Notes under the pieces: model-generated
What the model was told of the DNA's origin: nothing
Seen by the model: only the letters and a program-made list of their open reading frames with translations
The model's database searches: none
NCBI GenBank assembly: GCA_030747075.1
Contig: JASLLL010000001.1
Coordinates: 121,874-185,873, forward strand
Reading direction: 5' to 3'
DNA from: Gemmatimonadota bacterium
GTDB taxonomy: Bacteria > ARS69
Length of the DNA stretch: 64,000 nt
Made by a program: the position numbers and the translations under genes
Part shown: in pieces, positions 1,513 through 45,345 of the stretch
Layout of the letters: the number at the start of each line of letters is the position of its first letter
Position numbering within the stretch: position 1 is the stretch's first letter

Positions 1513-2387
<875 letters not shown>

Positions 2388-2544
2388 GGTCCGGCTCCTC
2401 CGAATGGCGAGGGAGTATAGCGGAATCCGGCGGTGTGGGAAGAGGCGCGTGGGGGGTGCCGGAACCGGCCAGGCGACCGCGCGCGGGAAGGCCCGCAACC
2501 GCAAGCCGGGTGCGCCGTGAGGCGGGCGTGAGGAATCGGCAGCC

Positions 2545-2573
2545 TTGTCGAAGCGACCGGGGCAGACTAGACT
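2545..2573 (+). promoter_or_regulatory. sigma70-type promoter of the zinc operon, probably leaderless
   Basis: TTGTCG (2545-2550), a 17-bp spacer and TAGACT (2568-2573) form a good -35/-10 pair. The expected transcription start is at about 2580, which is the A of the ATG of the next gene, and no SD precedes that ATG. This suggests a leaderless first cistron. No Zur-box palindrome was recognised. Confidence 0.5.
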
Positions 2574-2579
2574 GGTGCC

Positions 2580-2900
2580 ATGATCTGGCGATTCCGCTCT
2601 TCTTTCCGGTCACCCACGGCTCTCCGCGTCGCGGCGTTGCTGCTTCTCATTGCGGGTGTCGCCTGTGAAGCGGGACACCTCGAGCACCATGTCGGCGATG
2701 TCGGCCACCAACCCGGCTCAACCGACCCGGAGCATCACGCCTGCTGTGTCCTTCACGGCGTGGATGCCGTAGGGGACACCCCCCGGTTCACGGACGAACT
2801 GGTCGTGCTGGGCCGCGCGCGCGTCGCGTCGCCCGAGCGCCTCCCCGAGTTCGACGGACCGCGCCTCCCGGACTCCCGCGCGCCTCCGACCGCCTCCTGA
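2580..2900 (+). CDS. small secreted His-rich protein, first gene of the zinc operon
   Basis: Unrecognised 106-aa protein. Residues 15-29 form a hydrophobic stretch ([15 protein letters not shown]) that reads as a signal peptide, possibly a lipoprotein signal with Cys29. The next 30 residues are rich in His, Asp and Cys ([25 protein letters not shown]), which suggests metal binding outside the inner membrane. The rest is a charged, low-complexity tail. The gene lies 81 bp before the outer-membrane protein and upstream of znuA-znuB, so a role in zinc handling is inferred from context. The ATG coincides with the predicted transcription start. No family is claimed. Confidence 0.6.
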
Positions 2901-2981
2901 CGCGCAAGGAAACACGAGCATGACCGCCGTGGGCCAGACCGGTCCCTGCGGCGTCTATCTTGTTGTCTGGAGGAGACTGTT

Positions 2982-4082
2982 ATGAAGACGACTCTGCTTG
3001 TCGCCGCCATCCTGTCCCTGACCGTCAGCGCCGCGCTCGGCGCGTCGTCCACGGCCACGGGCGTGTCCAACGACATGAACCCGGCCATCAGCTTCAATGC
3101 CCTGTTTCTGGGGCAATGGAACGACGGCTCATCCACCGCCGACGAAAACTTCGCCAGGCTCCAGGAGGCGGAGGTCCAGTTCACCTCGGCAGTCGATCCG
3201 TTCTGGGCCGCCGATGTGGTGGTGGCCTTCCATCCCGCCCACGATCACGAAGACGGTGAGGGGCATGGCCTGGAGACCGACCTGGAGGTCGCCGCGCTGA
3301 CCAGCACCGCCATGCCCGCCGGCCTGGGCCTGACCCTCGGCCGCTTCTACCTGCCCGTCGGCCGCCACGCCATGCTGCACACTCACCAGTACCCCTTCGC
3401 CCGGGCGCCTCTGGCCCAGCGCCGGATCCTCGGGGACCACGGCCTGAGCGAGGTGGGTGCCGCGGTCGACGCCTCACTGCCCCTTCCCTGGTGGTCGGAG
3501 GTGATGGTGTACGGTGTGAACGGTGACGCGGAGATCTTCAACCCCCATGAGGACGCGCTTGTCGTCGGCGCCCATTGGTCGAACCTCTTCGATCTGGGCG
3601 ACGACGCCACCTTCGAACTCGGCGGGTCGTACCTGAGCGGGCCGGGTGCTCCGCACGAAGACGAAACCGGCAATCTGGCGGTCGCCGGATTCGATGCCAC
3701 ATGGAAATGGACTTCTTCGGCGAAATCCCACGGCCCTGCCGCCGAGGTGTCCGTGGAGGCCTACCTGCCTGATGCCGAGCATGGCGAGGCGAACCCCGTG
3801 GGCTGGTTCGCTCTCGCCCGGTACCGCGTCCACCGCGACTGGTGGGTGGGCGCCGGCTGCGGGGAAGTGGACGGGGCGCTCGAACACGACCACGAGAAGG
3901 AGGACGGGGAACGGGCCGACTGGACCGAGTGGAAGGCCGCCGTCACCTATGCGCCCAGCCACTTCAGTTCCTTGCGTGGCGAGGTGTCGCGCACCGGGAA
4001 GACCGGCGGCGAAGCGGCGAATCTGCGAGCCTCGGTGCAGTGGAACTTCACGATCGGGTCGCACCCGGCGCACCTGTACTAG
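2982..4082 (+). CDS. zinc-operon outer-membrane beta-barrel protein
   Basis: 366-aa exported protein with a clear signal peptide (MKTTLLVAAILSLTVSAALGAS). The mature part alternates short amphipathic strands and ends in an aromatic-rich segment (ASVQWNFTIGSHPAHLY), as expected of an outer-membrane barrel. Three His/Asp/Glu clusters (HPAHDHEDGEGHG, HTHQYPFARAPLAQRR, EHDHEKEDGE) could attract zinc in exposed loops. Similar porin-like proteins are often encoded beside ZnuA-type transporters. The start follows TGGAGGAG by six bases. The stop is nine bases before znuA, so this is the same transcript. The specific substrate, zinc, is inferred from neighbours. Confidence 0.75.
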   Translation: MKTTLLVAAILSLTVSAALGASSTATGVSNDMNPAISFNALFLGQWNDGSSTADENFARLQEAEVQFTSAVDPFWAADVVVAFHPAHDHEDGEGHGLETDLEVAALTSTAMPAGLGLTLGRFYLPVGRHAMLHTHQYPFARAPLAQRRILGDHGLSEVGAAVDASLPLPWWSEVMVYGVNGDAEIFNPHEDALVVGAHWSNLFDLGDDATFELGGSYLSGPGAPHEDETGNLAVAGFDATWKWTSSAKSHGPAAEVSVEAYLPDAEHGEANPVGWFALARYRVHRDWWVGAGCGEVDGALEHDHEKEDGERADWTEWKAAVTYAPSHFSSLRGEVSRTGKTGGEAANLRASVQWNFTIGSHPAHLY

Positions 4083-4091
4083 GAGGACGCC

Positions 4092-5027
4092 ATGACGCGC
4101 ATCATCCATGCCCTTCCGCTTCTGCTCCTCGCGGTCGCGCCGCTCTCTCCCGATGTCGCGGAAGCCGGCCTGAGAGTCGTGGCCACCACTTCGGACCTTG
4201 GTGATCTCGCCCGGCTCGTGGGCGGCGACGATGTCGAGGTTTCGGTGCTCTGTCCCGGCTCGACCGACCCCCATTACCTGTCGGCCAAACCCAGCCTGGC
4301 CCGCAAGCTTGGCAAGGCTGACCTGCTCGTCTACAACGGTCTCGAACTGGAGATCGGCTGGCTGCCCCGCCTCATCCGCAAGGCGCGCAACCCGAAGGTC
4401 CGTCCTGGAGCCGACGGCGAGTTGGACTGCTCCTCGGCCCTGACGGAGGTCCTGGGTGTGCCGCACGATCATGTCGACCGCGGCCACGGCGACATCCACG
4501 CCCTGGGCAACCCCCACTACACCCTCGACCCCCGCGCCATGGTGCGAGTGGCCCGGCATATGGCCGCACGCATGGGTGAACTCGACCCCGACCACGCCGC
4601 GGCCCATGCCGCTCGCGCCGACTCCTTCGCCCGGGTCATTCGCGGCAGGCTGGCCGGGTGGGAAGCGGACATCGCCCCGGCCCGGGCGGGGCATGTGCTT
4701 CTCTACCATCAGACTTGGGCCTACCTGGTCCACTGGCTCGGCCTCGATGTGTATGGAGAGATCGAGCACCGTCCGGGCATCACGCCGTCACCCCGGCATG
4801 TGCAGGAGATGATTGACCGGGGCCGGGAACTGGGTGATGTCATCGTGGTGGCGGCCACCTGGAGCCATATCGATGTGGCCCGCCGCGCCGCCCACCGCAT
4901 GGGCGCGCCCCTGGCCGTTCTGCCGGCGTCCACGGGTGCGGTGGATGGCGTCGACAGCTACCTGCACCTCATCGACGCGATCGTAAAGGGGCTGGCGACA
5001 GCCGCGGCGGAAGGAGCCGGCTCATGA
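4092..5027 (+). CDS. znuA: zinc/manganese ABC transporter substrate-binding protein (ZnuA/TroA type)
   Basis: Periplasmic cluster-9 solute-binding protein, 311 aa, delivering Zn2+ (or Mn2+) to the ZnuB permease. An N-terminal signal peptide ends near AEAG. The mature protein opens with LRVVATTSDLGDLARLVGGD, the TroA-family first strand. Likely metal ligands are His in STDPHYLSAKPS, His in GNPHYTLDP and His in LLYHQTWAYLVHW. Between the first two is a His/Asp loop (HDHVDRGHGDIHALGNPH), typical of zinc-specific members. The stop overlaps the ZnuB ATG (ATGA), so the two are coupled. Zinc rather than manganese is favoured by the His-rich loop. Confidence 0.92.
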   Translation: MTRIIHALPLLLLAVAPLSPDVAEAGLRVVATTSDLGDLARLVGGDDVEVSVLCPGSTDPHYLSAKPSLARKLGKADLLVYNGLELEIGWLPRLIRKARNPKVRPGADGELDCSSALTEVLGVPHDHVDRGHGDIHALGNPHYTLDPRAMVRVARHMAARMGELDPDHAAAHAARADSFARVIRGRLAGWEADIAPARAGHVLLYHQTWAYLVHWLGLDVYGEIEHRPGITPSPRHVQEMIDRGRELGDVIVVAATWSHIDVARRAAHRMGAPLAVLPASTGAVDGVDSYLHLIDAIVKGLATAAAEGAGS

Positions 5028-5842
5028 GCGGCTTTCTCGAAATGATGGCGGCCCCGGTCGTCCTGGCCCTGGTTCTGGTGGCCATGCACTCCCATCTGGG
5101 GTGGCATGTGGTGCGTCGGGGGGTGATCTTCGTGGATATCGCCCTGGCGCAGGTGGCAGCCTTCGGCGTGGCGGTCTCGCTGATCCTCGGCGGCGAGATC
5201 GGTTCCGACATGACCCACTTCATCGCGCTGGTCACCACCTTCCTGGGCGCCGGCCTGATCGCCTTGAGCCGCACCCGCGGCGACCGGGTGCCCCAGGAAG
5301 CGTACATCGGCATCATCTATGTCGTGGCCAGCGCCTCGATGATCCTGGTGCTCACTCAGGTACCCCACGGTGGCGAAGAGATCCGCCACCTGCTCGTGGG
5401 TGCCATCTTGTGGGTCACCTGGCCGGTCGTCGTGAAGACGGCGGTGCTGTACGCGGCCCTCGGCGGCCTGCTGTGGCTCTGGCGCGTTCCGCTCTGTCGC
5501 ATCTCCACCGACTCGGAGGGGGCCCGCCGCAACCGTCTCCACGTCGGCTGGTGGGATCTGGTGTTCTACGCGATCCTCGGCACCGCCGTGACCTCGAGCG
5601 TACAGGTAGCCGGGGTGCTGCTGGTGTTTGCGTTGCTGGTGGTGCCTACGGTGATGGCGGCGAGGCTCTTCCCGGCCAACCGGGTCCAGTTCGTCTACGC
5701 GATGGGCGTGGGAGTACTGGCTGTGGTGGCCGGATCCGCAGTGAGCTATGTGGCCGACCTGCCAACGGGGGCGGCCATCGTATGCGTGTTCGGAGGGTTC
5801 CTCGTGATCCAACTGCTCGCGGAGAGAGTCGTGCGGCGCTGA
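5024..5842 (+). CDS. znuB: zinc ABC transporter permease (ZnuB, ABC-3 family)
   Basis: Inner-membrane permease of the ABC-3 family, 272 aa, with about eight hydrophobic helices. It moves the cation released by ZnuA. Family signatures include AMHSHLGWHVVRRGVIFVDI near the start, LALSRTRGDRVPQEAYIGIIY and AGVLLVFALLVVPTVMAARL. It is the last gene of the operon: after its stop at 5842 come 95 bp and then apbE on the other strand. No ATPase gene (ZnuC) adjoins it on either side, although the family needs one. The ATPase must be encoded elsewhere or borrowed from another transporter. Confidence 0.92.
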   Translation: MSGFLEMMAAPVVLALVLVAMHSHLGWHVVRRGVIFVDIALAQVAAFGVAVSLILGGEIGSDMTHFIALVTTFLGAGLIALSRTRGDRVPQEAYIGIIYVVASASMILVLTQVPHGGEEIRHLLVGAILWVTWPVVVKTAVLYAALGGLLWLWRVPLCRISTDSEGARRNRLHVGWWDLVFYAILGTAVTSSVQVAGVLLVFALLVVPTVMAARLFPANRVQFVYAMGVGVLAVVAGSAVSYVADLPTGAAIVCVFGGFLVIQLLAERVVRR

Positions 5843-5937
5843 TCTCACTCCGGGCGACGGGTGATCAAGGCGCTGTGCGCTGGCACGGGGCGGTCGGTTC
5901 CTCTTGTCAAGATGCCGGGGAATGGCCGCGGGGGGAC

Positions 5938-6972
5938 TCAGTCCAGAATCACCAGCCCGTGCTCCACAATCAGGAGCGAATCCGCCCGCACCCGCCCGGT
6001 CGCATCCACATGGAGTGATCGCGGAAAGGGAACCACCCCGCGGTCCTCCCCATCCTCGCCGCCATTCCCGTCCCCCCCGGCAATGAACAGCCAGGTCGCC
6101 CGCGCGTCCGCCTCCTCCGCCGTGGGTGCAATGGCGGTCGCGCTCCTCGACCCGCGCGCGGGCCAACCCGATCTCGGGTCAAGAATGTGATGGTGGCGCA
6201 CTCCGTCCACTTCCACAAAGCGCTCGTAGTCGCCGCTGGTTGCCACGGCCGCGTCCTCCAGTTCGAAGTGTCCCAGAAGCTCCCCCGCCCGGCGCGGGTG
6301 CCGGATGCCGATCCACCACCGGCGGCCGGGTCGCTTGCGTCCCGACGCGAAGACATCGCCGCCCGCGTTCAGCAGGAAGTCGCGAAGCCCGCGTTCACGA
6401 AGCACCGCCGCCGCGCGATCCACCGCGTATCCCTTTGCGATCGCGCCCAGGTCCACGCGCGTCACCGCGGACGGCAACCGCACGGTCCCCGCTGCCGCGT
6501 CCATCACCACCGCGCCCGCACCCACGCCCGGCAGGAGGGCCGCCACTTCCGCCGCCTCCGGGACGCGCGCGTCATGGTCGCCGAAACCCCACAGCGCGGT
6601 GAGCGCACCCACGGACACATCGAAGAGCCCGCCGGAACGCGCGCGATACTCCCACGCGCGCGCGATCACGCCGAACGCCTCCGGCCCGACCGGTACCGCC
6701 TCCCCGCCCGCCGATTCATTCAGCGCGGCGATGTCGCTCCCGTCCCCTTCCGTATGAAGCAGCGCCTCCACGCGTTCCATCTCCAGGAACGCTTCCAGGA
6801 GTGCGGCGCGCGCGTGCGATTCGTCTTCCGCGAGAACGGTCGCTTCGACGAGCGTGCCCATGAGGATTCTGCTGACGGAGACTTCGACGCGCTCCGGCCC
6901 GGCCGCCACGGGCCGCGCCATCATCAGCGCGACGACCACCACGCCCACGGCCGCCCGCGTCAGCGCGCGCAT
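5938..6972 (-). CDS. apbE: FAD:protein FMN transferase (ApbE)
   Basis: Exported flavin transferase that uses FAD to attach FMN covalently to threonine or serine of extracytoplasmic electron-transfer proteins. The 344-aa product has a hydrophobic signal segment (residues 5-24). Conserved ApbE features are MGTLVEATVLAED, GLFDVSVGALTALWGFGDH, RVDLGAIAKGYAVDRAA, FLLNAGGDVFASG and the metal-binding HHILDPRSGWPA. The ATG at 6972 lies one base after the DUF3570 stop, which marks it as the last gene of a five-gene operon. An in-frame extension to 7014 is rejected because it would overlap the upstream gene and lacks an SD. The acceptor protein is not obvious in this window. Confidence 0.95.
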   Translation of the reverse strand: MRALTRAAVGVVVVALMMARPVAAGPERVEVSVSRILMGTLVEATVLAEDESHARAALLEAFLEMERVEALLHTEGDGSDIAALNESAGGEAVPVGPEAFGVIARAWEYRARSGGLFDVSVGALTALWGFGDHDARVPEAAEVAALLPGVGAGAVVMDAAAGTVRLPSAVTRVDLGAIAKGYAVDRAAAVLRERGLRDFLLNAGGDVFASGRKRPGRRWWIGIRHPRRAGELLGHFELEDAAVATSGDYERFVEVDGVRHHHILDPRSGWPARGSRSATAIAPTAEEADARATWLFIAGGDGNGGEDGEDRGVVPFPRSLHVDATGRVRADSLLIVEHGLVILD

Positions 6973-40802: not shown

Positions 40803-41336
40803 ATGGGTACCCAAGCGCGCATCGTCGTCTCCGCCTGCCTGCTGGGTGAGCGCGTCCGCTACGACGGCGGGCACTGCCGTGCTGAGGCAATCCTCCGGAA
40901 AATGGGACCGTCCGTGGAGTGGGTTCCGCTCTGCCCGGAGGCCGATGCCGGGTTGGGAGTACCTCGTGAGACCATCGACCTCGTGCGGGCGGGGGGTGCG
41001 CTTCGCCTCCTCGGCACCGAGACGCGCACCGATCACACTCAGGCCATGCGCCGGTGGGCCACGAAACGCGCGAAGGCACTCCGTGAGGCGGGCGTGGACG
41101 GATGCGTTCTGAAGGCGCGGTCACCGAGTTGCGGAGTGGGCAGCGCGCGAGTTCTGGACGGACACGGAGCGGAACACGCGCGGGAAGACGGGATGTTCGC
41201 GCGGGCTGTCCGGGAGGCCATGCCGAGTCTCCCCGTGGCGGAGGAGTCGGACCTCGAGGAACCCACCGCCCTGCGGGAGTTCCTCGAAGCCGTCCTCCAC
41301 CATGCCCGGGAGAGGGCCGGGTCGACTAGCGGGTGA
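40803..41336 (+). CDS. DUF523 (YbbK-like) protein
   Basis: 177-aa DUF523 protein: IVVSACLLGERVRYDGGHCR, VPLCPEADAGLGVPRETIDL, CVLKARSPSCGVGSARVLDG and an internal acidic C-terminus. The three conserved cysteine-containing blocks suggest metal or Fe-S binding, but no function is established. ATG 40803 is preferred because the family begins a few residues before SACLLG; the frame is open to 40758. The stop overlaps the convergent beta-propeller gene by 11 bp. Confidence 0.87.
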   Translation: MGTQARIVVSACLLGERVRYDGGHCRAEAILRKMGPSVEWVPLCPEADAGLGVPRETIDLVRAGGALRLLGTETRTDHTQAMRRWATKRAKALREAGVDGCVLKARSPSCGVGSARVLDGHGAEHAREDGMFARAVREAMPSLPVAEESDLEEPTALREFLEAVLHHARERAGSTSG

Positions 41337-43833
41337 CGATCAACTTCCTGGAGATCCGCTCTTCCCCCGCCTTCAGCACCGCAAAGTAGACGCCGGACGG
41401 CACATCATCCGTGAGCCAGTCGGCCATTCGGATGAGTCCGTCGCCTGCGGGAATCTCCGCAACGCGACTGACCAGTCGGCCTGCGACATCGTGAATGTCG
41501 AGCGTCACGACCCCGGCATACTTCGCGGCAAACCGAAGCGTGGCCTGATCCGTCACCGGGTTCGGCCAGGGCGCGTCGAGCATGAGATTCCGCGGCCCCG
41601 CCTGCACGCCCGTCTCCACGCCTGTGCTCATGGAGGTGATGTCCACCTCCCACATTCCGCGCCCATAGGTGCCCGCCACGAGTTTGCCGCCCGAGCGGTG
41701 AATCTCCAGATCTGAGACGACGACATTCGGGAGGCCGGTCTCAAACGGGGACCAGCTTCCTCCGGCATCGAGCGATGCCCAGACGCCGACATCGGTTCCA
41801 ATGAACCAGTGGTCCGTGTTCGACCAGTCCACCGCGATCGCGTTCACCGGCTGGGAGGGGAAGTTCGACGACTTGTCGGTCCAGGTGGATCCGCTGTCGG
41901 TGGTGAGCGCAATGTGGCTGGTTCCATCTCCGTAGCCGGAGAAGACGACGATGGCGGAGTTCGTATCGGTCGGGTGCGCCAGTATCTTCGTCACGCCCCC
42001 GGTCGAAAACCCGTACGGCGAAGCCTGCGTCCAGCTCCCTCCGTCATCGGTCGTTTGATACACTCCGGACCCCGCAGTCCAGACGACATTTCCATCTACC
42101 GGGCTGATCGAGATCCAGGTGGCGGTCTGCCCGCCGACATTGGTCCAGTTGGATCCGCCGTTCAAGGTGCGGAAGATCCCGTCGCTGGACGAGGTGTAGA
42201 GATGGTTGGGTGTTACCTGGTCTTCATCCACCGGGGCGACCCACGCGCCGGTGCCCGTGATGCCGCTGTTGATCTGTGACCATCCCGTACCGCCGTTGGA
42301 GGTCTTCCGGTGGTCTCCGTAATAGAGTTCCGCGTAGATCACATTGGCGGAAGTGGGCTTGACATTGCAGACCATCCCGTCGCCACCGAGGATGTAGGTC
42401 CAGTTGGATGTTCCGGTCCACTTGTCGGTGCCATTGTCCTGGCTGCCGCCCACGGCAATGGTCGGGCTCGATTGCGCCACGCAGATGTCGTAGAACTGGA
42501 AAGTCACGAGTCCGTTGTTCAGGTCCGTCCAGCTGGTGCCATCGTTCTGTGAGCGGTAGATCCCGCCGTCGTTCGCGACCCAGAGATTCGAGTTGCTCCC
42601 CGGCTCGTAGCGGACTGCATGGTAGTCCACATGAACCCAGTTCCCGATCTGGCTGTAGCCCGTCCCGCCGTTGGTGGACCGATAGAGACGCACGCCTCCG
42701 GCGATGATGCGGTCGGCGTTGTTCGGATCCGCCGCGAGGATCAGGTTGTACCAGCCCTGCCCGCCACCGATGTTGGGGTTGGCGCCAGAGCGTTGCGTCC
42801 AGGTGGAGCCGCCGTCCGTAGACCGATAGACGCCGGTCGTCCCGCCGTTGCTCGAGTTCTCGGAGTAGAGTGCGTAGATGTAGTCGGGGTTGGCGGCGGT
42901 CACCGCGATCTTCGACTTCCCGACCGTCCAGGACGAGGGCTGCCCCGTTCCGGCCTTTGCCCAGGTGAGTCCGTCGTCGGTGGAGATCTTGACATTGTTT
43001 CCCGACGCGGAGGACCCCTTGACCGTGTAGACGGTATTCGGGTCTCCCGGCTTCCACTTGACATCGTAGTAGTCGTCGCCGGTCTTCACATCGATCCAGG
43101 TGTTCCCATCATCCGTGGAGCGCCACAGGCCGTCCATCGCGCCCGCGAGAATGGTCCCCGTCGTGGCGTTTGCCTCCATGGCGTGGAAGCCGCTGTTGCT
43201 TCCCGATGGCTTGGTGTAGTCCGTCGTGTTCCAGGTGGCGCCCGCGTCGGTCGACTTGAGAATGCCGACGCCGTGGACATCGCCGTTCGCGCCCTCGCCC
43301 GTGCCGATCAGGACAATGTCCGGATTCCAAGGCAGCACGCAGACCGCGCCAATGGCGATCGACGGGATCTCGTCGGAAATGGGCGCCCAACTCGACCCGT
43401 AGTCCGTGCTCTTCCAGAGTCCGCCGCTGGCGGAGCCCGCATAAACGATGTTCACATCGCTCGGGTGGAAGTCGATATCGAGCATTCGCCCGGCGTAGTT
43501 GCCCGGCCCCAGCGAGAACCAGGTCGACCTTGAGGAGGCGGGCCGCGCCGCTTCCATCTCCCGCTTCGCTTCCCAGGCCTTCCAGCGCGCGTCCGGGGCC
43601 GGGCCTTCCCCGTTCACAAGTCGCTGCTCGCGGAACCACTTGATCCGGTTGTACGGCTTCCAGCCGCTGCCGCGCGTGTCCTGAAGTTCGGGATGGGCCT
43701 CGAAGTGTCGGGCCATGCCGTCGATCCATGCATCGGTCCGGTCGACTTCCGGCGCGGAAACGGCGGGGGCGGGCAGCGTCGCAAGAAGGGCGACCATCAC
43801 CACCGTCGCCAGCGAGATTCGAAGTGTATTCAT
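41326..43833 (-). CDS. large secreted beta-propeller protein with FlgD-type C-terminal tail
   Basis: 835-aa secreted protein. Signal peptide: ISLATVVMVALLATLPAPAV. Residues about 110-730 contain many Asp-box/BNR-like repeats (VYRSTDGGSTWTQ, IYRSQNDGTSWTDL, IFRTLNGGSNWTNV, VYQTTDDGGSWTQ), as in VPS10/sialidase-type propellers. The last 85 residues form a FlgD-like domain (PWPNPVTDQATLRF, LDIHDVAGRLVSR, VPSGVYFAVLKAG, SRKLIVTR), a probable surface sorting or anchoring signal. The catalytic residues of sialidases were not seen, so binding or structural use is more likely. ATG 43833 follows AGAGGAAT. Confidence 0.88.
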   Translation of the reverse strand: MNTLRISLATVVMVALLATLPAPAVSAPEVDRTDAWIDGMARHFEAHPELQDTRGSGWKPYNRIKWFREQRLVNGEGPAPDARWKAWEAKREMEAARPASSRSTWFSLGPGNYAGRMLDIDFHPSDVNIVYAGSASGGLWKSTDYGSSWAPISDEIPSIAIGAVCVLPWNPDIVLIGTGEGANGDVHGVGILKSTDAGATWNTTDYTKPSGSNSGFHAMEANATTGTILAGAMDGLWRSTDDGNTWIDVKTGDDYYDVKWKPGDPNTVYTVKGSSASGNNVKISTDDGLTWAKAGTGQPSSWTVGKSKIAVTAANPDYIYALYSENSSNGGTTGVYRSTDGGSTWTQRSGANPNIGGGQGWYNLILAADPNNADRIIAGGVRLYRSTNGGTGYSQIGNWVHVDYHAVRYEPGSNSNLWVANDGGIYRSQNDGTSWTDLNNGLVTFQFYDICVAQSSPTIAVGGSQDNGTDKWTGTSNWTYILGGDGMVCNVKPTSANVIYAELYYGDHRKTSNGGTGWSQINSGITGTGAWVAPVDEDQVTPNHLYTSSSDGIFRTLNGGSNWTNVGGQTATWISISPVDGNVVWTAGSGVYQTTDDGGSWTQASPYGFSTGGVTKILAHPTDTNSAIVVFSGYGDGTSHIALTTDSGSTWTDKSSNFPSQPVNAIAVDWSNTDHWFIGTDVGVWASLDAGGSWSPFETGLPNVVVSDLEIHRSGGKLVAGTYGRGMWEVDITSMSTGVETGVQAGPRNLMLDAPWPNPVTDQATLRFAAKYAGVVTLDIHDVAGRLVSRVAEIPAGDGLIRMADWLTDDVPSGVYFAVLKAGEERISRKLIVTR

Positions 43834-43991
43834 GGGTGGGATTCCTCTCGGTCCTGGATGTCTGATGGGAACGCACGGTCGGGGAGGAGACGCGTGAGCA
43901 CAATCCTGCGTGGATACTACCACACTTGGCGACAAATCTCACGCCGGGCGGAAGCGGAGGGCGTAGCGAGGGGCTGAGTCAGGGTTCAGGC

Positions 43992-44030: not shown

Positions 44031-45227
44031 CTAGTCCGTCTCACCCGCCAGTTCTGCAAAGCGGGTTTCCTGCCCCTTGTAATGCTCGTTCTCGGGATCC
44101 TCTTTCCGCGCAACACGCATGGTCGCAAGGGCTTCCACCGGGCGGCCCCGGGCGTTCTGGATCTCCGCAAGGGTGTCAAGAATATGTCCCCTCGCGCTGC
44201 CCTCCGACGACAACTCCACGCCACGGGTGGCCAGTTCCTCCGCCTCTTCCAGATTCACGCCGTTCTCAAAGCACCACCACGCGAAGCTGTTGAGTTCACG
44301 CGCGTCCTCCCGCCAGCCCTCCTCAAGGAGTACCCGCTTGTGCCGGAGCGCCGCTTCGGCATCTCCGTTGACACGCAGTTCGTAGTCCGGGCGAAGCGCA
44401 AGCACCTGCTGCGCCACGCTCTCATCTTCCGAGCCTTCCGCGCCCTCGACGGCCGCCTTGATGTAGGGCGTCGCAAAGTCTTCATCGCCCAGCACTCCTT
44501 CCGCCCAGCGAATGATTGACGACACGCGCAGAAGGTCCGTCGGGGTCGCCTTCTCGGAAGCCACCACCGCATCCGCCGCCGCGGCAATCTCCTCCTGCGT
44601 CCCCTCGCCATTCTCCATGAGGTGGTAGATGCGGCACCGGAGGATGTCGTCCTCGCGCTTCACATCCTCCCGCGATTCCATTTCGATCGCCTTCAGATAG
44701 AGCGCGATCGCCGCCTCATACTTCCCCTGCGATTCCTCAATGCGGGCCAGTGACACCGCCCCTGCCCCGGTGGGATTCTCACCGAATCGAACGCGCTTCT
44801 CGTCGATCGTGGCCAGGTCCGCTGTCGCGCTGGCAAGGCGTTCGGTGAACCCGTCCGCATCGCCGTATCCGGCCCACACATCGATGGCCGCCCCCTCGGC
44901 GTTCATCAGAACGAAGGTCGGGAAACCGCTGACCCCGTAACGGGCCGCGAGGTCCACGCCCTCGCCCTTCTCGGCATCCACCCGGAAGAGGATGACCGGT
45001 TCCAGCGCCTTCTGCATGTTCTCATCGCTATCCACCGCACGGGCGAATGTCTTGCAGGGGCCTCACCAGTCGGCGAAGAAGTCCACAAGCAGCGGGACAT
45101 TGCGAGACGCGGACCAGGCTCGGGCCTCTTCGAAGGTGGTCGGTTCGGTCGGCGCCTTCGTCCGGGAGCAACCCGCAAGGGCGACCCCAATCCCGGCGAC
45201 CAGGAGAACGCGGGTGGAGATATGCAT
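44031..45227 (-). CDS. selenocysteine-containing thioredoxin-like lipoprotein (TGA at 45065-45063 read as Sec)
   Basis: The frame from ATG 45227 (behind AAAGGAAA) encodes a lipoprotein signal with lipobox LAGC (Cys20), then NVPLLVDFFADW, an in-frame TGA at codon 55, and GPCKTFARAV. This is a thioredoxin active site in which the first Cys of W-C-G-P-C-K is encoded by TGA. The frame then continues without stop for 343 codons: GVSGFPTFVLMNAEG with the thioredoxin cis-Pro, followed by a TPR-like helical region. A hairpin with a GU-containing loop lies 14 nt downstream. The 398-aa selenoprotein would be a thiol/selenol oxidoreductase in the periplasm. Conventional calling would start it at GTG 45035 and lose the active site. 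Confidence 0.85.
45030..45048 (-). promoter_or_regulatory. SECIS-like hairpin downstream of the TGA codon
   Basis: On the mRNA the segment ATTCGCC pairs with GGTGGAT (7 bp including two G-U pairs) around the loop CGUGC. The stem starts 14 nt after the UGA, and the loop G lies about 22 nt after it, within the range known for bacterial SECIS elements that bind SelB. No folding program was run. Confidence 0.55.
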
Positions 45228-45345
45228 TTCGGTTTCCTTTCGTGGGGGAATGGGAGACGAAGGCTAGCACCGGGTGGAGAACGCTGCAACCGGCGACGCG
45301 GGATGGGATGCCGACGCGCGTGCGGCAACCGCGCATCACGCCGGG

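Follow-up and report, generated by a model that had tools for sequence, protein, structure and literature searches.

A predicted selenocysteine-containing thioredoxin-TPR lipoprotein of a Gemmatimonadota bacterium and its homologs in other phyla

Introduction

A review of May 2026 lists 119 prokaryotic selenoprotein families in its Table 1, including the selenocysteine (Sec) thioredoxin, thiol:disulfide interchange proteins, and other thioredoxin-fold proteins with a UxxC motif (PMC13188914). The locus described here lies in a 64,000-nucleotide stretch of DNA from a Gemmatimonadota bacterium (the window), whose positions are used throughout. The closest described protein, the Sec thioredoxin (Trx, PF00085, UxxC; PMC13188914), has a thioredoxin fold, Sec at the first active-site position, and a SECIS just downstream, all of which appear to be shared by the protein encoded in the window. 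However, the window protein is predicted to be exported, is about 400 amino acids long, and has a C-terminal TPR domain. Its scores against the NCBIfam equivalogs of TrxA and TrxC were 50.3 and 38.5 bits, below the cut-offs of 96.8 and 125 bits, respectively.

The PF13098 thiol:disulfide interchange and cd02966 isomerase-like selenoproteins are also UxxC thioredoxin-fold oxidoreductases, but the inventory names no TPR domain for them (PMC13188914); PF13098 was the third-best Pfam match of the window protein. TsoB (NF045694) shares a DsbD C-terminal-like thioredoxin domain and was weakly matched by 17 of 18 family members, whereas it fuses rhodanese and DsbD parts and contains two Sec residues, and the window protein scored 37.2 bits against its cut-off of 805 bits. 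The Trx7/PDZ (seleno)protein (NF041199; 11 bits for the window protein, cut-off 300) is likewise a thioredoxin-like selenoprotein fused to another domain, but it carries CxxU instead of UxxC and PDZ instead of TPR. Among the closest solved thioredoxin domains are the DsbD C-terminal (gamma) domain and a Bacteroides putative disulfide isomerase (2kuc), both of which have Cys in place of Sec and lack a TPR domain.

A thioredoxin-TPR family is absent by name from the 119-family inventory (PMC13188914), and the literature searches brought up no description of such a selenoprotein. In addition, no NCBIfam model (June 2026) reached its cut-off with the window protein, which matched generic domains of the thioredoxin, PDI, or DsbD type best. 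Therefore, the thioredoxin-TPR selenoproteins are best called a new family among the already known Sec-containing UxxC thioredoxin-fold proteins. Some of its members may already be present in GenBank with a generic annotation.

Results

Reading frame, signal peptide, and neighboring genes

The frame from ATG 45227 to TAG 44031 comprises 399 codons including the stop codon, and its sole interruption is the TGA at codon 55, in the context D-W-[TGA]-G-P-C-K (Table 1). This translation agrees with the original prediction, which had described an otherwise continuous frame with W-TGA-G-P-C-K at that codon. It had also been anticipated that a conventional annotation would start at GTG 45035 and miss both the lipobox and the active site. 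Indeed, ORF finding with translation table 11 returned only 44031-45035 with the GTG start, and the signal peptide and active site are consequently lost in the standard annotation. The protein had further been described as a lipoprotein. The LAGC motif is present in the window protein, but a lipobox is uncommon in the family, most homologs in the alignment having ordinary signal peptides; the description probably suits this protein but is not family-wide.

Directly downstream, at 41326-43935 on the minus strand, lies a gene for an 869-amino-acid Sortilin/Vps10-type secreted protein with a C-terminal secretion-tail domain. Sortilin/Vps10-type genes or other grouped secreted proteins recur near some homologs, and an amidohydrolase gene was found upstream in several Krumholzibacteriota loci, while none was seen in the window. 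The Vps10-type neighbor was rejected as a functional clue, since the genome has several Vps10 paralogs. Because of these paralogs, and because the group of neighbors is tied together largely by differing secreted-protein domains (e.g., FlgD_ig), the neighborhood is uninformative.

Table 1. Features of the thioredoxin-TPR locus (window positions)
Feature	Position	Strand	Description	Basis
Predicted Sec thioredoxin-TPR lipoprotein gene	44031..45227	-	398 amino acids with TGA as Sec; stop TAG	Translation and homolog alignment
Likely ribosome-binding site	45235..45240	-	AAAGGA, 7 nt upstream of ATG 45227	Sequence; inference
Signal peptide with lipobox	45168..45227	-	LAGC, residues 17-20	Inferred from lipobox pattern
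Putative lipidated Cys20	45168..45170	-		Read off LAGC in the sequence
Thioredoxin domain	44817..45137	-	About residues 31-137; invariant P103-T104	Pfam, AlphaFold model, alignment
TGA codon 55, predicted selenocysteine	45063..45065	-	First active-site position of U-G-P-C	TGA at this position in 24 further loci, Cys in six
SECIS-like hairpin	45030..45048	-	7-bp stem; CGUGC loop, 21 nt past the UGA	Conserved and covarying among TGA sequences
TPR-like alpha solenoid	44034..44807	-	About residues 141-398; FAWWCFEN 315-322	AlphaFold, Foldseek, Pfam, alignment

Domain structure

In Pfam searches, the window protein matched PF00085 (2.2e-14) and PF13899 (1.9e-13), thioredoxin being above its gathering cut-off. 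The whole-protein score for PF13428 (TPR) was 24.1 against a cut-off of 23.5, and TPR Pfam matches were obtained in most members. The AlphaFold model (mean pLDDT 91.3, pTM 0.81) consists of a thioredoxin fold at approximately residues 31-137 followed by an all-helical solenoid. The best solved structural matches of the thioredoxin part were thioredoxins and disulfide isomerases (for 2kuc, Z 13.8, 110 residues, 2.1 A), and TPR superhelices were among the best Foldseek and structural matches of the C-terminal part. None of the structural matches listed combined thioredoxin and TPR in one PDB chain. The (C/U)xxC motif and the conserved Pro of the thioredoxin fold were both present; Trp54, Cys58, Pro103, and FAWWCFEN were invariant in an 18-sequence alignment. 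Pfam, AlphaFold, and the structural matches therefore agree on the proposed fusion of a thioredoxin fold to a TPR-like region. On the other hand, this fusion, which had been considered unusual, is the norm of the family and no peculiarity of this genome.

The signal peptide together with the UxxC motif makes an extracytoplasmic selenol/thiol oxidoreductase the most likely role. The domain also resembles PDI domains and the Bacteroides putative disulfide isomerase, and a selenoprotein whose thioredoxin domain acts mainly as a disulfide isomerase or oxidase is a possible, though rather unlikely, alternative. However, the DsbD C-terminal domain, a reductant, was matched in 18 of 18 members, and one DsbD_TM protein, a DsbD-type transporter, is encoded in the source genome. 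We regard a reductase role outside the cytoplasm as reasonably probable.

Homologous family and the codon-55 column

When 84,980 species genomes were scanned, approximately 30 loci matched the whole protein over long stretches with 34-41% identity. The other loci listed in the same scan were mostly generic thioredoxins, and a plasmid search yielded generic thioredoxins only. Named members belong to Zixibacteria, Krumholzibacteriota, Eisenbacteria, Latescibacterota, Gemmatimonadota, and Acidobacteriota; in Gemmatimonadota, the window's own phylum, the gene was found in four of five genomes.

TGA occupied the residue-55 column at 24 loci besides the window gene, in several phyla (L010, L011, L013-L015, L017, L018, L020-L024, L026-L028, L030-L032, L034, L037, L038, L040, L103, and L106). 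Six loci had Cys (TGC or TGT) in this column (L012, L019, L025, L029, L033, and L035), and the identical sequences L016 and L104 had Ser (TCG). The TGA is thus not a chance occurrence, since homologs align on both sides of it and carry it in the same column. As expected from the original prediction, the column held Cys in most homologs without TGA; the stricter claim that a thioredoxin fold requires Cys there had to be relaxed in view of the Ser paralog. selA was detected in 20 of the 23 genomes carrying the TGA form, the three in which it was not found (G003, G076, and G078) all being drafts, and in three of the six genomes in which the Cys form alone was seen.

Several loci showed individual peculiarities. 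The Ser paralog L016 (4917-6116) reads W-S-YSC, and the same assembly contains a Sec paralog (L030). L035 of Holophagae (about 2164-6077) comprises three tandem homologs, all with Cys, two of which are divergent (24-26% identity). The homolog L040 (1626-2336), on a contig labeled Caldisericaceae, has an extra in-frame TAG and a second TGA, and is either degraded or the result of an assembly or binning error.

A conserved hairpin downstream of the TGA

The rules for a bSECIS specify a loop of 3-9 nt, a stem of 4-16 bp, a distance of 16-37 nt between the UGA and the loop, a GU whose G falls within the first two loop positions, and an MFE of at most -7.5 kcal/mol (PMC13188914). A 7-bp stem with a GU loop had been noticed 14 nt past the TGA. 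The hairpin ATTCGCC-CGTGC-GGTGGAT (45048-45030) does begin exactly there, and its loop (5 nt), stem (7 bp), loop G, and spacing (21 nt) all follow the rules.

The region from the TGA to +45 was aligned without gaps across the family. The hairpin was kept at the same spacing in 24 of 24 distinct TGA sequences, in which columns 18-24 pair with columns 30-36 (96.4% of pair cells formed) and the loop is mostly CGUGN. Compensatory changes occurred at three of the seven pairs (columns 18/36, 22/32, and 24/30), with 14 cells changed on both sides; because the TGA sequences are mutually related, these counts are not independent. The covariation score was 0.380, compared with 0.245 +/- 0.022 in shuffles (0 of 500 as high) and 0.223 at best in slid registers, and RNAalifold recovered the same seven pairs unprompted. 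With random synonymous codons, 5.2 of the 7 pairs would be expected on average, against 6.8 observed; the stem is partly favored because the encoded residues (FAR motif) themselves promote pairing. In contrast, the hairpin positions of the nine Cys/Ser sequences paired at chance level (49.2%). The exception among these was L019 (Zixibacteria, 2570-3742), which retains TTTGCC-CGTGA-GGCAAA and whose genome contains selA; this hairpin is probably the relic of a recent Sec-to-Cys change.

Folding of the window sequence alone, which had been suggested as a check, did not single out the hairpin: the region (43-96 nt) was no stabler than shuffles (z +0.3 to +1.3). The isolated stem had -6.0 kcal/mol and the tested TGA relatives had -4.1 to -8.4 kcal/mol, against the model limit of -7.5; a 43-nt stretch of the window reached -7.5 kcal/mol, with a fold other than the hairpin. 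Its retention and covariation in the TGA members and its chance-level pairing in the Cys/Ser members indicate that the hairpin is very likely the SECIS element of the thioredoxin-TPR gene.

Sec machinery and decoding of UGA

The source genome (2.67 Mb, 61 contigs, recorded as 100% complete) contained selA (535 bits, above the cut-off), selB (329 bits, or 357 bits when the C-terminal part in the same frame was added), selD (364 bits), and a single tRNA-Sec, which scored 73 bits in Rfam (gathering score 47) and whose UCA anticodon was confirmed by ARAGORN and alignment. All of the machinery that was to be looked for is thus found in the same genome. A second above-threshold Rfam match to tRNA-Sec was a tRNA-Leu. 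The selD gene (L098, G000:C4:62873-63799, outside the window) has its own in-frame TGA in SHCAG-U-ASKI, at the UxxK site listed for Sec-containing SelD (PMC13188914). It is likely a second selenoprotein gene, and there are consequently at least two likely Sec genes in the genome. The hairpin after this TGA is very stable (-24.8 kcal/mol in 45 nt). When the genome was searched with a covariance model of the SECIS region, no other convincing selenoprotein emerged; apart from the known site, the matches were hairpins only, most of them lacking a TGA at the appropriate distance.

Since Sec decoding of the UGA is deduced from sequence, the possibility that codon 55 is read as another amino acid (e.g., Cys or Trp), whether through simple readthrough or a general reassignment of UGA, was also considered. 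General reassignment is argued against by the ordinary window genes, neighbors included, which also terminate in UGA, and by the genes checked, in which Trp is encoded by TGG and TGA never occurs in frame. Moreover, relatives have Cys or Ser in the column and never Trp, and the complete Sec machinery is accompanied by a conserved SECIS-like element, so that a non-Sec reading is very improbable. Still less credible is a pseudogene with a true premature stop at codon 55. The standard annotation does give a truncated gene, but the frame is intact on both sides of the TGA and conserved over its full length, third-position G+C is alike before and after it (0.80 and 0.78), and TGA is retained across several phyla at the one position at which Cys is replaceable by Sec. 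A sequencing or assembly error concealing TGC or TGT is just as implausible even though the window gene comes from a single draft genome, because the same TGA recurs in the relatives, with a hairpin mostly missing from the Cys members, and the genome has the Sec machinery.

The Sec machinery, the recurrence of TGA in one column, and the covarying hairpin conserved in the TGA members support the original prediction of a selenoprotein with TGA in place of the first active-site Cys codon. It is highly probable that the thioredoxin-TPR gene is a genuine selenoprotein gene in which UGA codon 55 is read as Sec.

Distribution of Sec, Cys, and Ser in the family

In an unrooted maximum-likelihood tree of 36 sequences, the Sec label changed 4 times, compared with 8.8 times when labels were shuffled, and the Cys/Ser members appeared at several places with moderate support. 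Sec is usual in the family and Cys is the exception, and Sec is therefore possibly the older state. We consider it fairly likely that these proteins constitute an undescribed and widely spread family of exported thioredoxin-TPR selenoproteins, in which the L019 hairpin is a relic and Cys or Ser may have replaced Sec several times independently.

Discussion

Sequence evidence supports the gene with its TGA codon and SECIS element, as well as the Sec machinery and the predicted fold, and from the domains we infer how the protein may work. UGA codon 55 would be decoded as Sec by SelB and tRNA-Sec(UCA), directed by the short SECIS hairpin with its apical loop 21 nt downstream. The product would be exported and, in the source organism, presumably lipid-anchored. 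Outside the cytoplasm, the Sec55/Cys58 pair of U-G-P-C would perform thiol-disulfide (selenol-selenenylsulfide) exchange, in which Sec55 would attack as the nucleophile and Cys58 would act as the resolving residue. As for the C-terminal TPR solenoid and its FAWWCFEN helix, their most likely task is to bring a partner or substrate protein into position, and electrons would probably be supplied via the single DsbD-type transmembrane protein of the genome. Taken together, the most likely identity of the protein is that of a thiol/selenol oxidoreductase that is anchored in the membrane, acts outside the cytoplasm, and is displayed on a TPR scaffold.

With this family, the bacterial selenoproteome gains a well-supported member from little-studied candidate phyla, one that is truncated by standard annotation. 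With its probable relic SECIS, the Cys member L019 provides a naturally occurring example of Sec/Cys exchange. Partner binding becomes a specific and testable hypothesis through the TPR fusion and the invariant FAWWCFEN motif.
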